Notes under the pieces: generated by a model | The model's database searches: none | What the model saw: only the letters and a program-made list of their open reading frames with translations | What the model was told of the DNA's origin: nothing | Shown: piece after piece, positions 29,834-39,592 of the stretch | Layout of the letters: the number at the start of each line of letters is the position of its first letter | Numbering within the stretch: the stretch's first letter is position 1 | NCBI GenBank assembly: GCA_025056895.1 | Contig: JANWVJ010000002.1 | Location: forward strand, 1-64,000 | Direction: 5' to 3' | Length of the DNA stretch: 64,000 nt | DNA from: Thermoflexales bacterium | GTDB lineage: Bacteria; Chloroflexota; Anaerolineae; J036; Brachytrichaceae | Program-made: the position numbers and the translations under genes

Positions 29834-31294
29834 ATGTCTGAACACTCTTCTACCAGTGCCGGCCTGGATCGCTACGCCAAAACTGCTCAAGCGCGTAGCA
29901 GCGTCTGGCGGTCGGCCATCATTACCCTCGTTGTGTTGCTGGTGTTTGTCGCGGCAGTTGTGGCTATTGACGCTGCTTTACAGCCGCAGCTTGCCGGCAT
30001 TGGGTTACTAGCTGTCGGCATTGTGTTGGCCCTAGCGCCAGCCATCTTGTGGTTGATTTTCTTCTACTTGCAAGATCGCGTCGAGCCGGAGCCGGTCGGC
30101 CATGTAGCACGTATGTTCGTCATCGGATTAGCACTGGCCGGCGCGATTGGCATACCGCTGACCGATCAGGTGTTCCGCACTCAGGATTGGTTGTTTCGAG
30201 ATATCGGCAGCACGCTGATTGGAACAGTGTTTGTGCGGGGCGCAATTGAGACCTTCATCGTGTACGCCACTGTGCGCTACTTCATGTTCGACTCGTCGGA
30301 GTTCGATGAGCGCACCGACGGCGTGATTTACGGAATGGCCGCCGGCCTGGGCTACGCCACAGCGAGCAATCTCCAGTTCATTCTATCCAGCGGCGGCACG
30401 GCGCTGGGCGGCGCCGAAGTGTATGTCGCCGAGGTGGCGTTGGCCTACGCCGCCTTCGGCGGCTTGCTTGGCTATTTCCTGGGCCATGCCAAAATGCAAC
30501 AGGACCCTGTCTGGTGGTTGCCCCTCGGATTCATCCTCACCGCAGCGCTGAATGGGCTATTCCTGACGTTGCGCGGCCAACTGGAAAGTGGCTCGATCTC
30601 GGTCGGTGCACAAGCCGGCGGCTTGCCGACAGTCACCGGCCTGCTGTTGTCCGGCGCCCTAGCGGTAATCGTCACGGCAATTGTGGCCTGGCTCATCAAC
30701 CGTGACGTGTCCGCCGCAGAAAAGGGCCAAGTGGCACCAGCAGCCGGCGATCCAACCATTGGCGATCGTCAGGCGAATTTGGCAACTATTGTGGTGTTTG
30801 CGGCGATGCTGCTTGTCGGCGTGATCGGCTGGAACGGCACCGTCAACGGCGTCTCCGCCTTCGAGCAGAACGGCATTCGCGGCGCCTATCCGGCCCACTT
30901 TAGTCTCGCCACGGGCGCGGGAGACGTGCTGCGCGTAGCCGACCGCACCGGCACGGGCACAGAGTTTGTAATCAGAAAGATGGAGTTGCCGGCTGGCCGG
31001 GACGTGAAAGCCGTTTCGTCCATGCTGGCTGCTGAACGTGCTGCAAACAACGTTCTATACAAAGTTGTACGCACAGGGAACGCCAATGTGAACGGCAAAG
31101 CAGCCACTGTGCAAGAATTTGCTTGGGTCGATCAGGGCGGACTCACAGGTGCTGTGCCACAAGTGATACAGGGCATTGATTACATCTTTGTCGTCGATAA
31201 CACAGCGATTGTTGTCACCATGATTGCTACGCCTGACACGATCGGTGTTGTGCAACCACAATTCGAGAGCTTTGTCAGCAGCCTGCTCTTTTGA
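29834..31294 (+). CDS. PrsW-like polytopic membrane protein fused to a C-terminal PsbP-like/extracytoplasmic domain
   Basis: YLQDRVEPEPVGHVARMFVIGLALAG...SSEFDERTDGVIYGMAAGLGYATASN; C-terminal NGIRGAYPAHFSLATGAGDVLRVADRTG... Confidence 0.75.
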   Translation: MSEHSSTSAGLDRYAKTAQARSSVWRSAIITLVVLLVFVAAVVAIDAALQPQLAGIGLLAVGIVLALAPAILWLIFFYLQDRVEPEPVGHVARMFVIGLALAGAIGIPLTDQVFRTQDWLFRDIGSTLIGTVFVRGAIETFIVYATVRYFMFDSSEFDERTDGVIYGMAAGLGYATASNLQFILSSGGTALGGAEVYVAEVALAYAAFGGLLGYFLGHAKMQQDPVWWLPLGFILTAALNGLFLTLRGQLESGSISVGAQAGGLPTVTGLLLSGALAVIVTAIVAWLINRDVSAAEKGQVAPAAGDPTIGDRQANLATIVVFAAMLLVGVIGWNGTVNGVSAFEQNGIRGAYPAHFSLATGAGDVLRVADRTGTGTEFVIRKMELPAGRDVKAVSSMLAAERAANNVLYKVVRTGNANVNGKAATVQEFAWVDQGGLTGAVPQVIQGIDYIFVVDNTAIVVTMIATPDTIGVVQPQFESFVSSLLF

Positions 31295-31400
31295 CAGCCG
31301 ATTGACGGTCAAATGTCCGATATACCCGCCAGACGCAACTTAGAGTGTCTCACACAGGACACAAGTTCAGGATCGTTTGTCGGGCCAGGAGAGTTTTGAA

Positions 31401-32231
31401 ATGAAGAAGATATTTCAATCGTGGATGGGATTGTTGTCCCTCACAATCGCTGTGTTGGTCTTGACGGTTGGCACGGCGTATTCCCAGCAGGTAGCGAAGT
31501 TTGCCACCCGCACGACGCCGGCGAGCGCTATGCAAGCGCCGGTCGAGCAGGGTTCCAGATGCACGAAGATGGAGGCCAGCGAAGTTGTTTGGGTTGTCCT
31601 GGATGAAGATGGAGAAGTCGTCGAAGAGGAAGTTGAGAGTTATCCCACCGAGACCACGCGCATCACGGCCCAGTTTGAGTACAACTGCATCCCGCGCCGA
31701 ACCACGCTGGTGACCGTGTGGAGCATCGATGGCGAAACCGTGGTGACAGCCGAAGACAAACCCAAGGCCAGCAATAAGCCGGATTTGTGGCAGGCCAGTC
31801 TCTTTATGCAGGACGGTTCGCCTTTGCCCGATGCTGAGTACGGCGTTCAGTTCTACATCGGCAAAGAGTTGCTGACCGAGGGTGTCGTGATTGTGGGCGG
31901 TGAAGGCGGAGTATCTAGGACTGTCACCGTGCAAGGCACCATTGTCGATTCTAGGACACAGAAGCCCATTCGGGGCGCGATCGTGATCGTATTGAACGAA
32001 GGCGTCGTTTTGGATGATTGGCTGAATGAAGGCGCAGACGAGGATATCTACGCCTTCGCCAAAACCGACAGCAAGGGCCAGTTTGTGCTGGACAATCCTA
32101 TCCCGATCGGCGTTCCACATTCATGGGTGATTGGCGCTCAAGGATACAGACCCGTTATCGAAGAAGACTGGGCGCTGGAAGAAGATACCGAAGATCCACT
32201 CGTGTTGAACATCAAGTTGGTGAAGCGTTAA
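31401..32231 (+). CDS. Secreted protein with C-terminal carboxypeptidase-regulatory-like domain
   Basis: Signal-peptide-like N-terminus MKKIFQSWMGLLSLTIAVLVLTVGTAYSQQ; VTVQGTIVDSRTQKPIRGAIVIVLNEG...AKTDSKGQFVLDNPI; C-terminus similar to the 34089 product. Confidence 0.65.
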   Translation: MKKIFQSWMGLLSLTIAVLVLTVGTAYSQQVAKFATRTTPASAMQAPVEQGSRCTKMEASEVVWVVLDEDGEVVEEEVESYPTETTRITAQFEYNCIPRRTTLVTVWSIDGETVVTAEDKPKASNKPDLWQASLFMQDGSPLPDAEYGVQFYIGKELLTEGVVIVGGEGGVSRTVTVQGTIVDSRTQKPIRGAIVIVLNEGVVLDDWLNEGADEDIYAFAKTDSKGQFVLDNPIPIGVPHSWVIGAQGYRPVIEEDWALEEDTEDPLVLNIKLVKR

Positions 32232-32263
32232 AAGGGAAGAGCTGATTTTCCCACTCGATCCTA

Positions 32264-32301
32264 CGGCGCGATTGCGCTGCACGTGCGCCGCAATCGCGCC
32301 G
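32264..32301. terminator. Long perfect hairpin (13-bp arms) downstream of the 31401-32231 gene
   Basis: CGGCGCGATTGCG - ctgcacgtgcgc - CGCAATCGCGCCG; no strong U-tract. Confidence 0.5.
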
Positions 32302-32570
32302 CAGCGCTGTGTCTTTCTCTTCGCTTTCAGGTGGGCAAACACACTTGCTGAGTTTCGAACCTGATCGCGCAGAATTGCATAGCACACCTTCAATCTGGCA
32401 TAATGTCAGTCGCGCTCTTAAGTGCAGTATCAATCCGCTGGTGATCGTGCCGTCATCACGAGCGCTTGAACCACCTGCTCGGGCCTGAATGCCCCATTTG
32501 CATGGGTTGCGCTAGAACGACGATCAGAGACTAAAAACCGAGCTTTTCTCATCAAAGCTGAGGAGGTCAT

Positions 32571-33458
32571 GTGAATATTGGGCGTGATCGTCAAAGTATC
32601 TGGCAAGCCGGCTTAATCGAGATTGTTGCCCTGCTTGCCTACGTTGCAATTGCTGAATTGGTGGTCGCCGTATTCAATCCAACCATCAGCCGGGACTGGC
32701 TGTTGCCGGTGGGTATGGTGCTGGCCATTGTTCCGGCTGCCATTTGGATGGCGTTCTTCTATGCCCAAGATCGCGGCGAGCCGGAGCCACGCCAGTATGT
32801 GTTGGCGGTGGCCATCCTTGGTGCACTGCTGGCCGCTGCAGTTGGCCAACCGTTCATCAATGATGTTGCCCGCGCCCCCCAATGGCTGGGCCACGACACA
32901 TTGACGGAAATCGTCGGCGCTATCCTGATCGTCGGCTTCACCCAGGAGTTTCTCAAGTACGCCGCTGTGCGCTACAGCATCTATTACTCGAACGAGTTCG
33001 ACGAGCGCATCGATGGTGTGCTGTACGGCACAGCAGCCGGCCTGGGCTACGCCACATTCATCAACATCGCCATGGTCATCAACAGCGGTGGTATCGCGGC
33101 AGAACAACTGAGCGCCGGCATCATCCGCATCGTCATTGTCACGCTGGTGCAAGCAGCACTGGGTGGATTGACTGGTTATTTCATCGCGCGCACCAAGTTC
33201 GACGACGAGCCGATCTGGTGGATGCCGGCCGGTCTCACGTTGGCTGCGGTCATCAATGGTTTGTTCTCATGGCTGGCCGGAGAGATCACCACGTCTCCGT
33301 TGACCATCGGCGCGGGTGAAGCTAGCGGGGGCTACAACCCTTGGCCAGCGCTGGCGCTGGCTGCAGTCGTCGCAGTCGCTTTGCTGGCTTTGACGTTCGC
33401 CCTCATGCGACGCGCGAATCGGCTCACACTGGCCGGCGCCGATGCGGATCACAACTAG
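32571..33458 (+). CDS. PrsW-like polytopic membrane protein (unfused paralog of 29834-31294)
   Basis: GTG start; FYAQDRGEPEPRQYVLAVAILGALLAAAVGQPF...TQEFLKYAAVRYSIYYSNEFDERIDGVLYGTAAGLGYATFIN. Confidence 0.78.
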   Translation: MNIGRDRQSIWQAGLIEIVALLAYVAIAELVVAVFNPTISRDWLLPVGMVLAIVPAAIWMAFFYAQDRGEPEPRQYVLAVAILGALLAAAVGQPFINDVARAPQWLGHDTLTEIVGAILIVGFTQEFLKYAAVRYSIYYSNEFDERIDGVLYGTAAGLGYATFINIAMVINSGGIAAEQLSAGIIRIVIVTLVQAALGGLTGYFIARTKFDDEPIWWMPAGLTLAAVINGLFSWLAGEITTSPLTIGAGEASGGYNPWPALALAAVVAVALLALTFALMRRANRLTLAGADADHN

Positions 33459-33468
33459 GAGGCAGTCC

Positions 33469-34092
33469 ATGATCACTCAAGCTCCCTCTTCTCAAACCCC
33501 CGTCTTTCGCATCAACAAGCGCGATCAACTGTCGGCTTTGCTCACGCTGATCGTGGCACTGATTGCCATCCTGGTTGGTCTGATGTGGCGCAATGTGGTC
33601 GAAAGCCGCACCCGCTCTTACACCGATCCATCGGGCTTTAGTTTCCAGTACCCTGAGCAATGGCGACTGGACACAACTGCTGCGGACGCCGGCTTGATCC
33701 GCGTCAGAGAGCCGGTCGGCGCCGACTATCCCGCTACCTTCGAAGTGCGTTGGCTGCCGGTTGTCCCTGACGCGACGGATCAGGATGCGCTGGCTACCGC
33801 TCTCAACACGCTTGCCCTCAATCGTGGTCGTGAGCTGTCGGCCTACAAGCTACTGGACACACAAACCGATCAGCTTGTTAAAGGACTGCCAGGCGCTACA
33901 GCCGCTTTCGTTTTTGTGGACGATCCGACCGGCGTGTTTCAACAGGGCATCCCCGCTGTGGTGCTGGGTGATGACCTACTAGCCCGCAAAGGAGACCGCG
34001 TGTATGTATTTAGCCTGCTGGCCGCGCGCACCAATCGCGAACAGACTGAAGGCTTGTTCCGTGCATTTATAGAGTCTGTGAGGTTGCCATGA
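33469..34092 (+). CDS. Membrane-anchored PsbP-like protein
   Basis: AGGAGG upstream; TM then SRTRSYTDPSGFSFQYPEQWRLDTTAADAGLIRVREPVGADYPATFEVRWLPV. Confidence 0.6.
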   Translation: MITQAPSSQTPVFRINKRDQLSALLTLIVALIAILVGLMWRNVVESRTRSYTDPSGFSFQYPEQWRLDTTAADAGLIRVREPVGADYPATFEVRWLPVVPDATDQDALATALNTLALNRGRELSAYKLLDTQTDQLVKGLPGATAAFVFVDDPTGVFQQGIPAVVLGDDLLARKGDRVYVFSLLAARTNREQTEGLFRAFIESVRLP

Positions 34093-35357
34093 GCAAAGTG
34101 CGTCTATTGTTTAGATCGGCTTGTCTAAGCTTGGCTGTGTTAGTTGCCTTAGCGGGCAGTAACCTCGCCGGCGGCGGCCTGTCGCTAGCTCAGGCTGCCT
34201 CTCCTGGACAACGAGGGGAGCGAGGGTCCGACACTGCAAAAGCACCTTGGCGCGCCGTCGTGCAACTGGGACCGGTAGCCCTGGTTAAAAACAAGAAAGG
34301 CAAGCAGGAGCTACGCTATTTTGGTTGGGGCAGCGGCACAGTCCTGACCCGCGACGGCTTGATCCTGACAAACTATCATGTGGTTGACGTCAGTGGCCTA
34401 GCCGAAGAGATCAAAGGCCAAAAGAATGTGCAGTTGCTTGAAAACACCATGGTGGTGTTGTTCACCCGCCAAACCGATCAGCCGCCGGTGGCCATGTTCA
34501 TCGCCGAGGTAGTCGATGCTTTGCCTAATCTTGATCTGGCGTTGGTGCGGATCCGCAGCGACTTGTCCGGCAACGAAATCGATCCTGATTCACTTGATCT
34601 GCCATTCATCGAATTGGGCGACTCAGACACGGTCGAGATTGAGGACGTGCTGCGTATTTACGGCTATCCGAGCATTGGCGGCAACACCATCACCTTCACA
34701 CGTGGCAACGTCAGCGGCTTCGACACCGAAGAGGGCGTTGAAGGCCGTGCCTGGATCAAGACTGATGCGACAATCTCCGGCGGCAACAGCGGCGGCACAG
34801 CCCTGAACGACGCCGGCCAACTGGTCGGCGTGCCGACTCAAGCTGCGGTGAGCAGCGCCGAACGGATCACCGATTGCCGGCGCGTGCAGGACACCAATGG
34901 CGATGGGCGGATCGACGAAACAGACACGTGCATCCCGATTGGAGGCTTCATCAATGCGCTGCGGCCGGTCAACCTGGCCCGCGAGATGATCGCCAGAGCG
35001 ATAGATGGAGAATCGCCAAACCCAGATGAGCCGGATGGGCCGGCGAGTGATGGTGTGCAAATCGTCGGCACGATTGTCGACGCCCACACCGGTAAGCCCA
35101 TCCCCGGCGCGGTGTTCGTCGTCTTGCAGGCCGGCCTAACTTGGAGCGAATTCAGCGGCAGTGAAGACGAAGTGCTGGAGGCCGTCAAGACCGATCGGCA
35201 GGGCCGCTTTGAGATGACCGAACTTCTGGAGCGCGGCAAAACCTACAGCGTAGGCTGGGCGGCGAAAGGTTATCGAGAAGTCACACAAGACAACTTGAAA
35301 GTCACCAACGAGACACCCGATGTCGTCGAGGCGACATTAAAGCTGCAAAAGCGGTGA
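34089..35357 (+). CDS. Trypsin-like (S1/HtrA-type) serine protease with C-terminal carboxypeptidase-regulatory-like domain
   Basis: Triad segments LTNYHVV (H), NLDLALVRI (D), ATISGGNSGGTAL (S); C-terminal VQIVGTIVDAHTGKPIPGAVFVVLQAG...KTDRQGRFEM. Confidence 0.88.
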   Translation: MSKVRLLFRSACLSLAVLVALAGSNLAGGGLSLAQAASPGQRGERGSDTAKAPWRAVVQLGPVALVKNKKGKQELRYFGWGSGTVLTRDGLILTNYHVVDVSGLAEEIKGQKNVQLLENTMVVLFTRQTDQPPVAMFIAEVVDALPNLDLALVRIRSDLSGNEIDPDSLDLPFIELGDSDTVEIEDVLRIYGYPSIGGNTITFTRGNVSGFDTEEGVEGRAWIKTDATISGGNSGGTALNDAGQLVGVPTQAAVSSAERITDCRRVQDTNGDGRIDETDTCIPIGGFINALRPVNLAREMIARAIDGESPNPDEPDGPASDGVQIVGTIVDAHTGKPIPGAVFVVLQAGLTWSEFSGSEDEVLEAVKTDRQGRFEMTELLERGKTYSVGWAAKGYREVTQDNLKVTNETPDVVEATLKLQKR

Positions 35358-35380: not shown

Positions 35381-35815
35381 ATGCAGCCGACTCACGACCA
35401 GGCGATTTGGGACACGCTGCGCCGACACTTGACCTCCATCTTCAACGGCGATGCCCAAACCTATGCCGAGACAACTGACTCAGAATTGTCACTGTACGAG
35501 TGGTACATCACGCCGCATCGCCAGGATGGCCTGGAATTTCATCTGTGCCTGGTGCAAGAATCCGTCCCGCCGGCTGACCACGCGGTGCGTTTTGACGTGC
35601 TGGAGCCACGCTTGCAAGTGTACGGTGATCCGACCGGTGAGGGGCTGGCTGTTGCCATTGCCAGCTACACGCTGATGGTGACGCGCAAGACACCGGCCGG
35701 CATCACCCATCGAACACACAACGAAAGCCGGGTGTTGGTTCGGCGCGCCGGCAGATGGCAAGTCGTGCATGTCCACAAGTCGCCGGCCTGGCCTGCGCCG
35801 TTTGCACCCAGCTAG
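35381..35815 (+). CDS. NTF2/SnoaL-like (CaMKII association domain-like) protein
   Basis: MQPTHDQAIWDTLRRHLTSIFNGDAQTYAETTDSELSLYEWYITPHRQDGLEFH...THNESRVLVRRAGRWQVVHVHKSP. Confidence 0.7.
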   Translation: MQPTHDQAIWDTLRRHLTSIFNGDAQTYAETTDSELSLYEWYITPHRQDGLEFHLCLVQESVPPADHAVRFDVLEPRLQVYGDPTGEGLAVAIASYTLMVTRKTPAGITHRTHNESRVLVRRAGRWQVVHVHKSPAWPAPFAPS

Positions 35816-35838
35816 CCGGCTGTTCTGCCTTCAGCCAT

Positions 35839-35861
35839 AGGGCGACCCAACCGGTCGCCCT
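35839..35861. terminator. Perfect 9-bp hairpin between the NTF2-like and PQQ-propeller genes
   Basis: AGGGCGACC-caacc... GGTCGCCCT. Confidence 0.45.
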
Positions 35862-35882
35862 AATTCGTAGTAAGCAGGGCCT

Positions 35883-37802
35883 ATGCAATCCCAGCCGCGT
35901 TCTCCCTCTTCTGAGTCGCGCGCACGAGTCGCGCAAGACCTTGCCGGACTAGCCATCTTGTTCGCGTGCATTGTCGTGATCGGCGCGGCATTTTGGCAGC
36001 CCTGGTTGCCCCCACCCGACCCGGCAGGCACGACACTCGATCAATACATACCGGCCGCCAACGGCGACGTGCGCCTGCTGGCCGTGTATGACGCAGCCGG
36101 CCAGATCAGCGCTTGGAGCAGCCACAACGTCGTTGTGTTGCCGGCCTTGCGTGGCATGACCTACGACCTGGGGCTGGCCATCGGCGGCGCCATACTCGAA
36201 CGCTATGCCCCTCCTACCGGCGATGTCCTATCGGTGGAATGGCTGCGCGATTTACAGCTCATTGAAGCGCGCAGTCGCATGATAGACAAGAGGGGTGTGA
36301 TCACGTCAACCACCGCCGTCTACGTGCGCGAGCCGGCCGGCCAGTTTCTGGTCGCTGTGCGTGATATGACCCACGGTTTGGACCTGGTCTTCTCGCCCTT
36401 CATTCAAGCGTATCCTGCCAATTTGACATCGGGCAGCACGTGGAACAGTGAAGGAGTCGCATCGGGCGGGCTGACCTATCGTTTTGAAGGTCGTGTGGTG
36501 CAGGCCGGCCCATTTCAAAACGCCGCAGCGCGGTACGAGGACTGCTTGCAGGTCGAAACTCGTTTGAGCCTGATGGCCGAAAACGGGTGGCACGCGACAA
36601 CAACGGTCAACGAATGGCTATGCGCTGGTGTGGGCGTCGTGGAACACGTTGAGCGGGATAGCGGTGGAGGGATCATGTGGCGACGCATCCTGAGTGACGC
36701 TGCGCCGCTTGCGGAACGCTATCCCCCGCCGGCTGCTCTTTTGAAGGAGACACCGCCCTTAGCCGACGCCGGTCGCTGGCGGCTCAATCTGTTTGCCAGG
36801 GCCAATCTGAGCGGCGTTGAATTTGAAAGCTCAATCCCACCGACCTGGTTGCCGCTCGACCCGCCTCTTGTTTTGACAGCGGGATACAACGGCGATTTGT
36901 TAGCATTTACGGCGCTCACTCAAACTGGCGCGCTGGCGTGGCGCTTTCATACCGACGGCACGATCTACAGCCCGCCGGCATTCGACCCTCTTCGCACCCG
37001 CATCTACTTCGGCGCAACAAACAAGCGCCTGTATGCACTGGATGCACGTGGGATATTTCTATGGTCGTTCGCCACCGGCGACAACGTGGCCACTCGGCCT
37101 TTGGTTGTAAGCGACACGGTCATCTTCGGCAGCGAGGATCGCCATGTCTATGCTCTGAATGCGGATGCCGGCACCCTGCGTTGGCGCGCAGAACTCGGCG
37201 CAGCAGTTGTTTCCGCGCCAGCCCTCGCCGGTGACGCCGTGATCGTCGGATGTGACGACGGGGGTGTGTATGCACTCGATGTCGATGACGGCGAGTTGCT
37301 CTGGGAAACCGGCATCGATTCAAGCGACTCATTCATTGAAGCGCCGGTCACGACAGTTGGCAATCGTGCCTTCGTCGCCTCCAGCGCCGGCACCCTAGCC
37401 GCGCTTGATTCGACCAGCGGTGAAGTCATATGGACAGCGAGCCTCGGCGCAGGGATTCGTAACGCACCGGCCATCGGCAACGGGATAATCGCTGTGATCG
37501 ATCAAGCAGGTCGCCTGACGGCGCTCAACGCCCAAGATGGCCGGCGGCTATGGCGCGACGAGACAATTCGCTATTCAGGCGCGCCGCTGATTATCGACAC
37601 CACTGTTCTGGCCATCGACCGAGATGGCGTGTTCCACCTGTTGGATCAGGCCGGCCGGCGGCTACAGCAGTGGGCCACAGCAGAGCACATTACAGCCGCG
37701 GAGACCGGCAATCGCTTTGACTTCATCTATGGCGCGACGATCGGCGGCGAAGCAATCTGGGCGATCAACGCTAAAGCGCTTGTTTGGAGGTTGGGTCCAT
37801 GA
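35883..37802 (+). CDS. Membrane-anchored protein with PQQ-like beta-propeller repeats
   Basis: Repeats GALAWRFHTDGTIYSPPAF, GIFLWSFATGDNVATRPLV, GTLRWRAELGAAVVSAPAL, GELLWETGIDSSDSFIEAPV, GEVIWTASLGAGIRNAPAI. Confidence 0.85.
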   Translation: MQSQPRSPSSESRARVAQDLAGLAILFACIVVIGAAFWQPWLPPPDPAGTTLDQYIPAANGDVRLLAVYDAAGQISAWSSHNVVVLPALRGMTYDLGLAIGGAILERYAPPTGDVLSVEWLRDLQLIEARSRMIDKRGVITSTTAVYVREPAGQFLVAVRDMTHGLDLVFSPFIQAYPANLTSGSTWNSEGVASGGLTYRFEGRVVQAGPFQNAAARYEDCLQVETRLSLMAENGWHATTTVNEWLCAGVGVVEHVERDSGGGIMWRRILSDAAPLAERYPPPAALLKETPPLADAGRWRLNLFARANLSGVEFESSIPPTWLPLDPPLVLTAGYNGDLLAFTALTQTGALAWRFHTDGTIYSPPAFDPLRTRIYFGATNKRLYALDARGIFLWSFATGDNVATRPLVVSDTVIFGSEDRHVYALNADAGTLRWRAELGAAVVSAPALAGDAVIVGCDDGGVYALDVDDGELLWETGIDSSDSFIEAPVTTVGNRAFVASSAGTLAALDSTSGEVIWTASLGAGIRNAPAIGNGIIAVIDQAGRLTALNAQDGRRLWRDETIRYSGAPLIIDTTVLAIDRDGVFHLLDQAGRRLQQWATAEHITAAETGNRFDFIYGATIGGEAIWAINAKALVWRLGP

Positions 37803-39592
37803 ACAAGTTTGTGCATCGGCTGAAACCCACATCAGCAACCCTGGCGGCGCTGCTCGGCTTGATGTGGGCCTTGACGTTCGGCGCGTTGCGCGACTTTGTG
37901 TGGGCTGATCTGAAGGCCGGCCTCATCGATCTACGCGGCTTATCGCGCGTGACACGTGGCTTGATTGGTCTGGGGTTTGCGTTGATGGCGCTGACTATTG
38001 GCTTGCTGATATTCAACGACTTCTGGCGCGCCTCGGCCGATTTGATTGCCCTACCCAACAGCCTGCCGGGACGCGGCACACTGGCGCCGGTTCCGCTCCT
38101 GCCGGCGACGCTGTTTCTATTGTCTATGGCATGGAGCTTCGCTCTGGTCGGCGCGCTGCACAGCCATTGGGCCATTCGGTGGGGTGTGCTGGCGCTCTTT
38201 GTCATCGTCAGCGCCACACGCATTGGCAGCATGACCAAACTCGGCAGCGCGGGCGCCGGCGTACTCGGCGTGGCAACAGTGATCGCTTTGTTTGTGATTC
38301 GGCTACGTTGGAAGCTGCCGCTCGGCCTAGACTTTTTGCTGGTTCTGACGCTCGTGTCGTTCAGTTTCCTGACTCCACAAGCACAAGGCATATCAGACTG
38401 GCGCGTGACCGGCGTGCCGCTCGTGGTGTCCGATCTGAATGGCCATTTATTGACCGTCTCCACACTGGCATTCCCGATGTTGATGTTGGTGGGGTTGTCG
38501 ATGGCTCAATTTACGCACCTCGCTTCGAAGTGGACGGTGGAGATTGTTCAGCACCGGTTGCCGGTTGTCGTTCTATACATTGCGCTCGGTGTGACGCTTG
38601 CCCTCCGCTTGCGCCATACCGTGAGCTGGGCTATTGAGACATTTCAACGCGCGCCGGCCCAGGAAATCGGCTCTTTTCTCGGCGCGTTAGGTGTGCCGCT
38701 ATGCGTTGGCGTGGCGTGGTGGATCGCGCGGCGAAACATGTCGGCAGACGCCCGGCCGACCGCATCAGAGCTGACCGAGAGTGCCGACACCGCTGCGCCG
38801 GCGCTGATTGTTGGCTATCTTGCCCCTCAGTTGTACATATTTGTCTTGCTGTCGTTGCTGCTGGCCTTCGTGTCGTTCTTTCCCATCACCGAGGTGTCCA
38901 GCGTGGCACAACTGGCCGCCAGCGGATATGCCGATTTTCTGAACAACCAATACACCCCGATTTGGCGGGTGGTGTTCTTTGGATTGGTCATGCTCATCGG
39001 CGTCGCCCAAGCAAAGCGGAAACAACATGCTCTTGCCCTCTACTTGATGGCGTTTGCGCTGATCGCAACATGGATTGAGTTGGCCGATATCGGCCGGCCG
39101 TTGAGCGCCTTGAGCTGGTTTGGGCCGGCATACACCGATTTCTGGTGGACAGTTCTTTTTGGCGTGGTGGCGCTGTCGTGGGTGGCGCGGCGTACGCTCA
39201 CGCCGGCACGGGCCGCAGCACTGCTGCTGGTCACGCTGATGAGCGGGCTGTTACAACAGACCGCTTTTATCAACAATCGTTTCACGCCGTTCCTGGGATT
39301 TGCCGGCGTTGGGTTCGTCGCTTTTGGTCTGATCTGGGACGCCTTGACAGCCGGATCATGGGCGAATGTAGATTCCCCCGGCTTGCCTCGGGCCGGGCGC
39401 ATTTTCCTTTACCTCGGCTACGTGCTGTTGACGGTGACATTGGTGAACTGGGCGCTGACCACGCACGACTTAGCAAAAACGGCCCAGCTCACCGGCGACG
39501 CAGCCGCCTTTGGGTTAGACCGCTTTGGAAAGCCCATGCTGTATGCCCTGTACTTTGCCACACTCTGGGCGGGGCGCGACGCCAAATCGTGA
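37799..39592 (+). CDS. Hypothetical polytopic membrane protein
   Basis: Many TM stretches; ATGA overlap with the upstream gene (translational coupling). Confidence 0.65.
   Translation: MNKFVHRLKPTSATLAALLGLMWALTFGALRDFVWADLKAGLIDLRGLSRVTRGLIGLGFALMALTIGLLIFNDFWRASADLIALPNSLPGRGTLAPVPLLPATLFLLSMAWSFALVGALHSHWAIRWGVLALFVIVSATRIGSMTKLGSAGAGVLGVATVIALFVIRLRWKLPLGLDFLLVLTLVSFSFLTPQAQGISDWRVTGVPLVVSDLNGHLLTVSTLAFPMLMLVGLSMAQFTHLASKWTVEIVQHRLPVVVLYIALGVTLALRLRHTVSWAIETFQRAPAQEIGSFLGALGVPLCVGVAWWIARRNMSADARPTASELTESADTAAPALIVGYLAPQLYIFVLLSLLLAFVSFFPITEVSSVAQLAASGYADFLNNQYTPIWRVVFFGLVMLIGVAQAKRKQHALALYLMAFALIATWIELADIGRPLSALSWFGPAYTDFWWTVLFGVVALSWVARRTLTPARAAALLLVTLMSGLLQQTAFINNRFTPFLGFAGVGFVAFGLIWDALTAGSWANVDSPGLPRAGRIFLYLGYVLLTVTLVNWALTTHDLAKTAQLTGDAAAFGLDRFGKPMLYALYFATLWAGRDAKS

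Follow-up and report, generated by a model that had tools for sequence, protein, structure and literature searches.

A conserved Chloroflexota gene module of PrsW-like pseudoproteases, PsbP-like proteins, and C-terminally tagged secreted proteins: A possible membrane cofactor system for surface proteases

Across the Chloroflexota, sequence comparison delineates a conserved and widespread gene module composed of a PrsW-like membrane protein, a PsbP-like protein, and one secreted protein that ends in a CarboxypepD_reg/transthyretin-like domain (hereafter, CPD). The PrsW-like proteins are apparently inactive as proteases, judging from the residues at their active-site positions, and the association of this pseudoprotease/PsbP module with the CPD protein points to an undescribed system that holds or controls a protease at the cell surface. 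From these comparisons, we infer a membrane cofactor system that serves a single cognate protein at the surface, most often a protease—a reading that we put a little short of an even chance. No published description of such a module was found in the open-access literature; an earlier account elsewhere is possible.

The window, the whole 64,000-nucleotide stretch of a Thermoflexales bacterium contig analyzed here, carries two such units side by side (Table 1), and their five open reading frames were recovered exactly as the initial annotation had delimited them. Both PrsW-like copies score above the curated PF13367 cut-off (23.5 bits). The Trypsin_2 and CarboxypepD_reg matches of the unit 2 protease also exceed their curated cut-offs (32.3 bits for CarboxypepD_reg), and the CarboxypepD_reg match of the unit 1 exported protein falls slightly below the same value. 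In the unit 1 fusion, the PsbP part occupies approximately residues 339–486. The tabulated start is the preferred one for the unit 2 PsbP-like gene, with GGAGG immediately 5′, and the downstream S1 protease has its His, Asp, and Ser motifs (TNYHVV, NLDLAL, and GGNSGG). The unit 2 genes abut or overlap, and a 340-base gap with a strong hairpin divides unit 1 from unit 2. This hairpin has a fold z-score of −2.4 and no clear T-run, and it may mark a boundary between two transcription units; a promoter and terminator scan found sites no commoner than in shuffled sequence, and transcription units cannot be drawn from that scan. The window is assigned to the genus Candidatus Roseilinea from its nearest named relative. 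Both same-genus genomes have the identical gene order, with PrsW-like orthologues at 85–86% identity, and the unit 2 PrsW-like protein has fused orthologues in loci L042 (73% identity) and L047 (56% identity).

Table 1. Features of the two units and their surroundings in the window
Feature	Position	Strand	Evidence
Unit 1 PrsW-like protein (apparent pseudoprotease) fused to a PsbP-fold domain	29834..31294	+	PF13367 48.7 bits; AlphaFold; Foldseek
Unit 1 exported protein: Ig-like, C-terminal transthyretin-like CPD, without protease domain	31401..32231	+	PF13620 30.1 bits
CPD of the unit 1 exported protein	31902..32228		
Hairpin between the units	32264..32300		
Unit 2 stand-alone PrsW-like protein (apparent pseudoprotease)	32571..33458	+	PF13367 68.2 bits
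Unit 2 PsbP-like protein, one N-terminal membrane helix	33469..34092	+	hhalign to fused tail 99.8%
Unit 2 exported S1 (Trypsin_2) protease with C-terminal CPD	34089..35357	+	PF13365 84.5 bits; PF13620 36.2 bits
CPD of the unit 2 S1 protein	35034..35354		
CaMKII association-domain-like protein, PQQ-type propeller, and 602-aa membrane protein, 3′ of unit 2	35381..39592		

The initial annotation had proposed that both units carry related tails, setting homology as the test, and that the PsbP-like tail of the fusion is the counterpart of the stand-alone PsbP-like protein. Profile–profile comparison bears out both proposals: the CPD of protease-less proteins is homologous to the CPD tails of S1 proteases (99.9%, E 7.6e-37), and the fused tail is homologous to the stand-alone PsbP-like proteins (hhalign, 99.8%, E 1.3e-27). 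The CPD tails of S1 and M4 proteases are likewise homologous (E 3.2e-31), though the proteases themselves are unrelated. An AlphaFold model of the unit 1 fusion (pLDDT 90.3, pTM 0.88) comprises nine long helices and one PsbP-like domain, for which the best PDB match found by Foldseek is cyanobacterial PsbP (2xb3; E 4.3e-06, TMt 0.72), with further matches to Mog1, EagT6/SciW, and DcrB; by its modeled fold, this domain belongs to the PsbP/Mog1/DUF1795 superfamily. The stand-alone protein of the window gives only a weak match to Pfam PsbP, and its orthologue in locus L053 scores above the Pfam cut-off. The model of the unit 1 CPD protein (pLDDT 87, pTM 0.57) leaves the arrangement of its domains uncertain; Foldseek matches the CPD itself to the transthyretin-like domain of carboxypeptidase D (5aq0, TMt 0.78), and also to prealbumin-like domains of pilins. 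The CPD is a CarboxypepD_reg/transthyretin-like domain by score in the S1 protein and by fold in unit 1. The idea that it is an ordinary CarboxypepD_reg domain was rejected; the CPD model misses other PF13620 domains of the same genome.

The two units had been described as a duplicated module. Parallel units are indeed present, but tandem duplication does not account for them: the two PrsW-like proteins share ~40% identity and fall into separate supported clades, and a recent duplication was rejected on that ground. In a tree including four canonical PrsW sequences, the PrsW-like family forms a single group apart from the canonical ones (100/100); unit 1 lies within a clade of fused proteins (100/100) and unit 2 among S1-linked proteins, in a small clade of its own that is supported at 100/100. 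By this tree, the window units are old paralogous modules that stand side by side. The fusion label undergoes at least four changes on supported branches, with PrsW and PsbP joined or split repeatedly, which is classical evidence that the two work together.

The distribution of the module was surveyed with one genome per species, and 84,980 species yielded 363 relatives; the 80 best loci of this set were read. PsbP adjoins or is fused to PrsW in 78 of the best 80 loci, a CPD-ended protein is present in 70, and the genes all lie on one strand. Nine of the ten loci without a CPD are on contigs that end nearby; in the genome of the tenth (L106, on contig C40 of genome G087), an M4-CPD gene lies on another contig. 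When 301 Chloroflexota genomes were sampled evenly, 20 had the PrsW-like protein and 21 had the CPD tail, with both in 20 (Fisher p 2.6e-30, a value that overstates the case given kinship among genomes); presence of the PrsW-like protein was taken as at least 200 bits, and two further matches near 94 bits were set aside. Seventeen genomes of the window's own family have both, nine have neither, and two have one only. The profiles were made from family members and then applied to neighbors, and matches were therefore cut at 35–60 bits; most of the genomes surveyed are metagenome assemblies. A joint role for the parts had been proposed, with a lack of co-occurrence in related genomes as grounds for refuting it; near-perfect co-occurrence, the common strand, and the repeated fusion or splitting of PrsW and PsbP now argue in its favor. 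Linkage alone is not the cause of the association, since in one genome the two lie on different contigs, and a chance neighborhood beside housekeeping genes was rejected on the basis of phylum-wide co-occurrence and this unlinked case. CPD copy number mostly tracks PrsW copy number, which favors a dedicated partner over a general sorting machine. Two of the 80 loci are labeled as other phyla (L139, Fermentibacterota; L080, Coprothermobacterota), whether by transfer or, as may be the case, misbinning. In a further locus (L140:178–1722), an S1-CPD gene lies on a 3.1-kb contig with no PrsW-like or PsbP gene upstream; a PrsW-like protein was also not found in its genome (G001), which is one of the two exceptions in the window's family.

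The module occurs in three versions: PrsW and PsbP followed by an S1 protease ending in the CPD (version A); an M4 thermolysin-type protease ending in the CPD, followed by PrsW and PsbP and accompanied by an emfourin-like gene (version B); and a PrsW/PsbP fusion with an Ig-like/CPD protein that has no protease domain, as in unit 1 of the window (version C). The PrsW proteins linked to M4 proteases group in a single clade (100/100). The CPD, a folded domain of ~108 residues whose last residues are often basic, stands at the C-terminal end of the protein in 98 of 99 cases. Catalytic motifs of the proteases are kept: HExxH is present in 28/28, and all complete S1 copies listed have a GxSG serine motif. 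Because homologous CPD tails terminate both the S1 and the M4 enzymes, which are themselves unrelated, the PrsW–PsbP–CPD set is, on this comparison, the constant part of the module and the enzyme its cargo.

Of 28 M4 loci, 25 contain the emfourin-like gene, which is absent from all 53 S1 loci; in M4-type loci it lies directly 3′ of PsbP (e.g., L053:10647–11186, L145:9608–10063, and L057:8352–8987). PF20242 is the best Pfam match in three orthologues, at 14–22 bits against a cut-off of 27; the SGG motif is conserved, and there is no evident export signal. Emfourin inhibits M4 proteases (PMC9505478). An inhibitor-like gene in these loci would fit a role in self-protection, with the PrsW-like/PsbP complex serving in the membrane as an immunity factor or inhibitor against the cognate secreted protease near the producing cell, as would the single partner per complex and the presence of the immunity protein Tsi3 among the weaker fold matches of the PsbP-like domain. 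However, the module is found with proteases of two unrelated folds and also with partners that have no protease domain, which suggests that the CPD tail is recognized rather than an active site, and the M4 loci already have a putative dedicated inhibitor; we therefore regard self-protection as unlikely.

According to published predictions for PrsW (PMC4602095), the active site draws on an EExxK motif in helix 3, a histidine in helix 5, and an HxxxD motif in helix 6; the set tested here allowed HxxxD/N in helix 6. Among 95 members of the PrsW-like family, EExxK is kept in 4, the TM5 His in 17, and the TM6 His and the full set in none; these counts include near relatives and do not represent independent events. 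The canonical PrsW of the same genomes keeps the full catalytic set. In the window, the corresponding positions read ET..V/Y/N in unit 1 and QE..K/Q/N in unit 2, and the two copies score 91.5 and 81.1 bits against the NCBIfam PrsW equivalog NF033739, for which the cut-off is 225. The initial annotation had suggested membrane proteolysis or envelope signaling. Membrane proteolysis by the PrsW-like protein is not supported, given these losses; because the active-site residues are missing, any proteolysis by the module would be the work of the secreted enzyme, S1 or M4. Envelope signaling may or may not be involved. Two of the 95 members keep both EExxK and the TM5 His, and these may have residual activity.

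Helix count and loop charges place the PsbP domain outside, weakly. Approximately half of the PrsW-like family carries a zinc-ribbon-like CxxC...CxxH motif at the N-terminus (e.g., L145:8071–9012 and L057:9601–10527), possibly a cytoplasmic sensor or binding part. The CPD protein could, in that event, be the ligand or switch of a receptor formed by the PrsW-like protein and PsbP, with the signal passing inward via this zinc ribbon; fusions of PrsW to Zn-ribbon and other signaling domains are on record (PMC3482391), and CPD proteins without a protease do exist. But the motif is absent from both window copies, and no transcription regulator, kinase, or anti-sigma factor recurs as a linked gene in the loci read, so that a sensory role seems improbable. 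Sortase-like processing is more doubtful still: the PrsW-like protein would anchor the exported protein by cutting or exchanging the C-terminus of its CPD, as in myxosortase and rhombosortase systems, and both the strictly C-terminal position of the CPD, with its often basic last residues, and the precedent of CPBP myxosortase in the same wider superfamily (PMC11980579) are consistent with this, but the catalytic residues are lost, the ~108-residue folded tail has neither the membrane helix nor the signature motif of such signals, and there is one partner per genome rather than dozens. That the family carries out ordinary site-1 proteolysis on a membrane substrate, as PrsW does, assisted by the neighbors as accessory factors, is very improbable, for although PF13367 is above its cut-off and DRxEPEP and EFDxxxDG-type motifs are common to the family and canonical PrsW, the catalytic counts given above and the equivalog scores (81–92 against 225) speak against it.

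A docking or cofactor role is favored by the combination of active-site loss, linkage, co-occurrence, homologous terminal CPDs, repeated fusion, intact protease motifs, and an EagT6/SciW-like fold. Among proteins of the PsbP/Mog1 fold are chaperones and adaptors of effectors, EagT6 and SciW being examples. Version C, including unit 1 of the window, counts against this role, as it is without a protease domain. In the mechanism we propose, the PsbP domain would face the outside of the cytoplasmic membrane and form a dock together with the pseudoprotease, and the CPD tail would be the docking tag of one exported partner; the complex would hold the protease at the surface and govern its folding, maturation, or activity, as iRhom does with ADAM17. 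In M4-type loci, the emfourin-like protein would keep the enzyme inactive before export. It is possible, at a likelihood we would place somewhat below even, that the module is an undescribed envelope system found across the phylum, in which a PrsW/CAAX-superfamily intramembrane pseudoprotease has turned receptor, recognizing the folded domain at the C-terminus of secreted proteases that are interchangeable and under its control; it would then be an independently evolved bacterial counterpart of iRhom–ADAM17.

iRhom is a rhomboid pseudoprotease and a cofactor of the surface metalloprotease ADAM17 (PMC11248996, PMC6451368). In both systems, an active protease that is exported or sits at the cell surface would be paired with a catalytically dead protein related to intramembrane proteases. 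However, the membrane fold here is PrsW and unrelated to rhomboid, the system is bacterial, the type of protease is exchangeable, and recognition probably proceeds via the folded C-terminal domain and the PsbP-fold domain; the cofactor role has been shown for iRhom and is proposed for the Chloroflexota module. The PrsW-like family gave no rhomboid match and is PrsW by both Pfam and NCBIfam; the likeness would concern a possible way of working, not descent.

Likenesses to bacterial systems are also partial. The PrsW site-1 protease of Bacillus subtilis belongs to the same family by profile (PF13367) and shares its noncatalytic motifs (PMC4602095), but the proteins described here have lost the active site and have PsbP and CPD partners, and their genomes still encode a canonical PrsW at another site. 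Sorting by myxosortase, rhombosortase, or exosortase likewise combines a membrane protein with exported proteins that have a C-terminal region in common (PMC11980579); here, in contrast, there are no catalytic residues, no C-terminal membrane helix, and no signature motif, and a folded tail marks one partner instead of dozens. In polymorphic toxin export, a PrsW-family membrane protein is proposed to handle an exported effector (PMC3482391), but that PrsW is fused at the N-terminus of the toxin and proposed to cut itself, whereas the present protein is separate and inactive-looking and has a PsbP partner; no toxin or immunity gene was seen with the module. The protealysin–emfourin operon (PMC9505478) resembles the M4-type loci, where an M4 protease has a putative emfourin-family inhibitor gene beside it, although the M4 enzyme of the module bears a CPD tag and has PrsW-like and PsbP-like genes as further neighbors, and the emfourin match does not reach the Pfam cut-off. 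The type VI effector chaperones EagT6 and SciW have the PsbP/Mog1 fold and partner an exported effector; the PsbP-like proteins differ in being membrane-linked, no type VI components were seen, and sequence identity is only 12–13%. A known anti-phage defense system was rejected: PADLOC gave only generic trypsin-domain matches to the S1 protein, and none to the PrsW-like, PsbP-like, or CPD proteins.

By default, members of the PrsW family are annotated as proteases, and a large clade that is without the active site and nevertheless remains tied to a secreted partner implies that many of these annotations are probably wrong. The module may serve as a bacterial model of the route by which intramembrane pseudoproteases turn into cofactors, and its C-terminal domain would mark exported proteins in a phylum about whose protein sorting little is known. 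The association is strong enough for a direct test with three genes in a laboratory host.

Genes beyond the module recur in places. The PQQ propeller and 602-aa membrane protein that lie 3′ of unit 2 also follow the module in L062 and L141, which are close relatives; as candidate core members they were left out, being conserved nearby only in close relatives. Sortilin/Vps10-type BNR propeller proteins of ~850–890 aa are encoded beside protease-less CPD genes in three loci (L052:6203–8851, L098:9372–11933, and L141:8235–10892).
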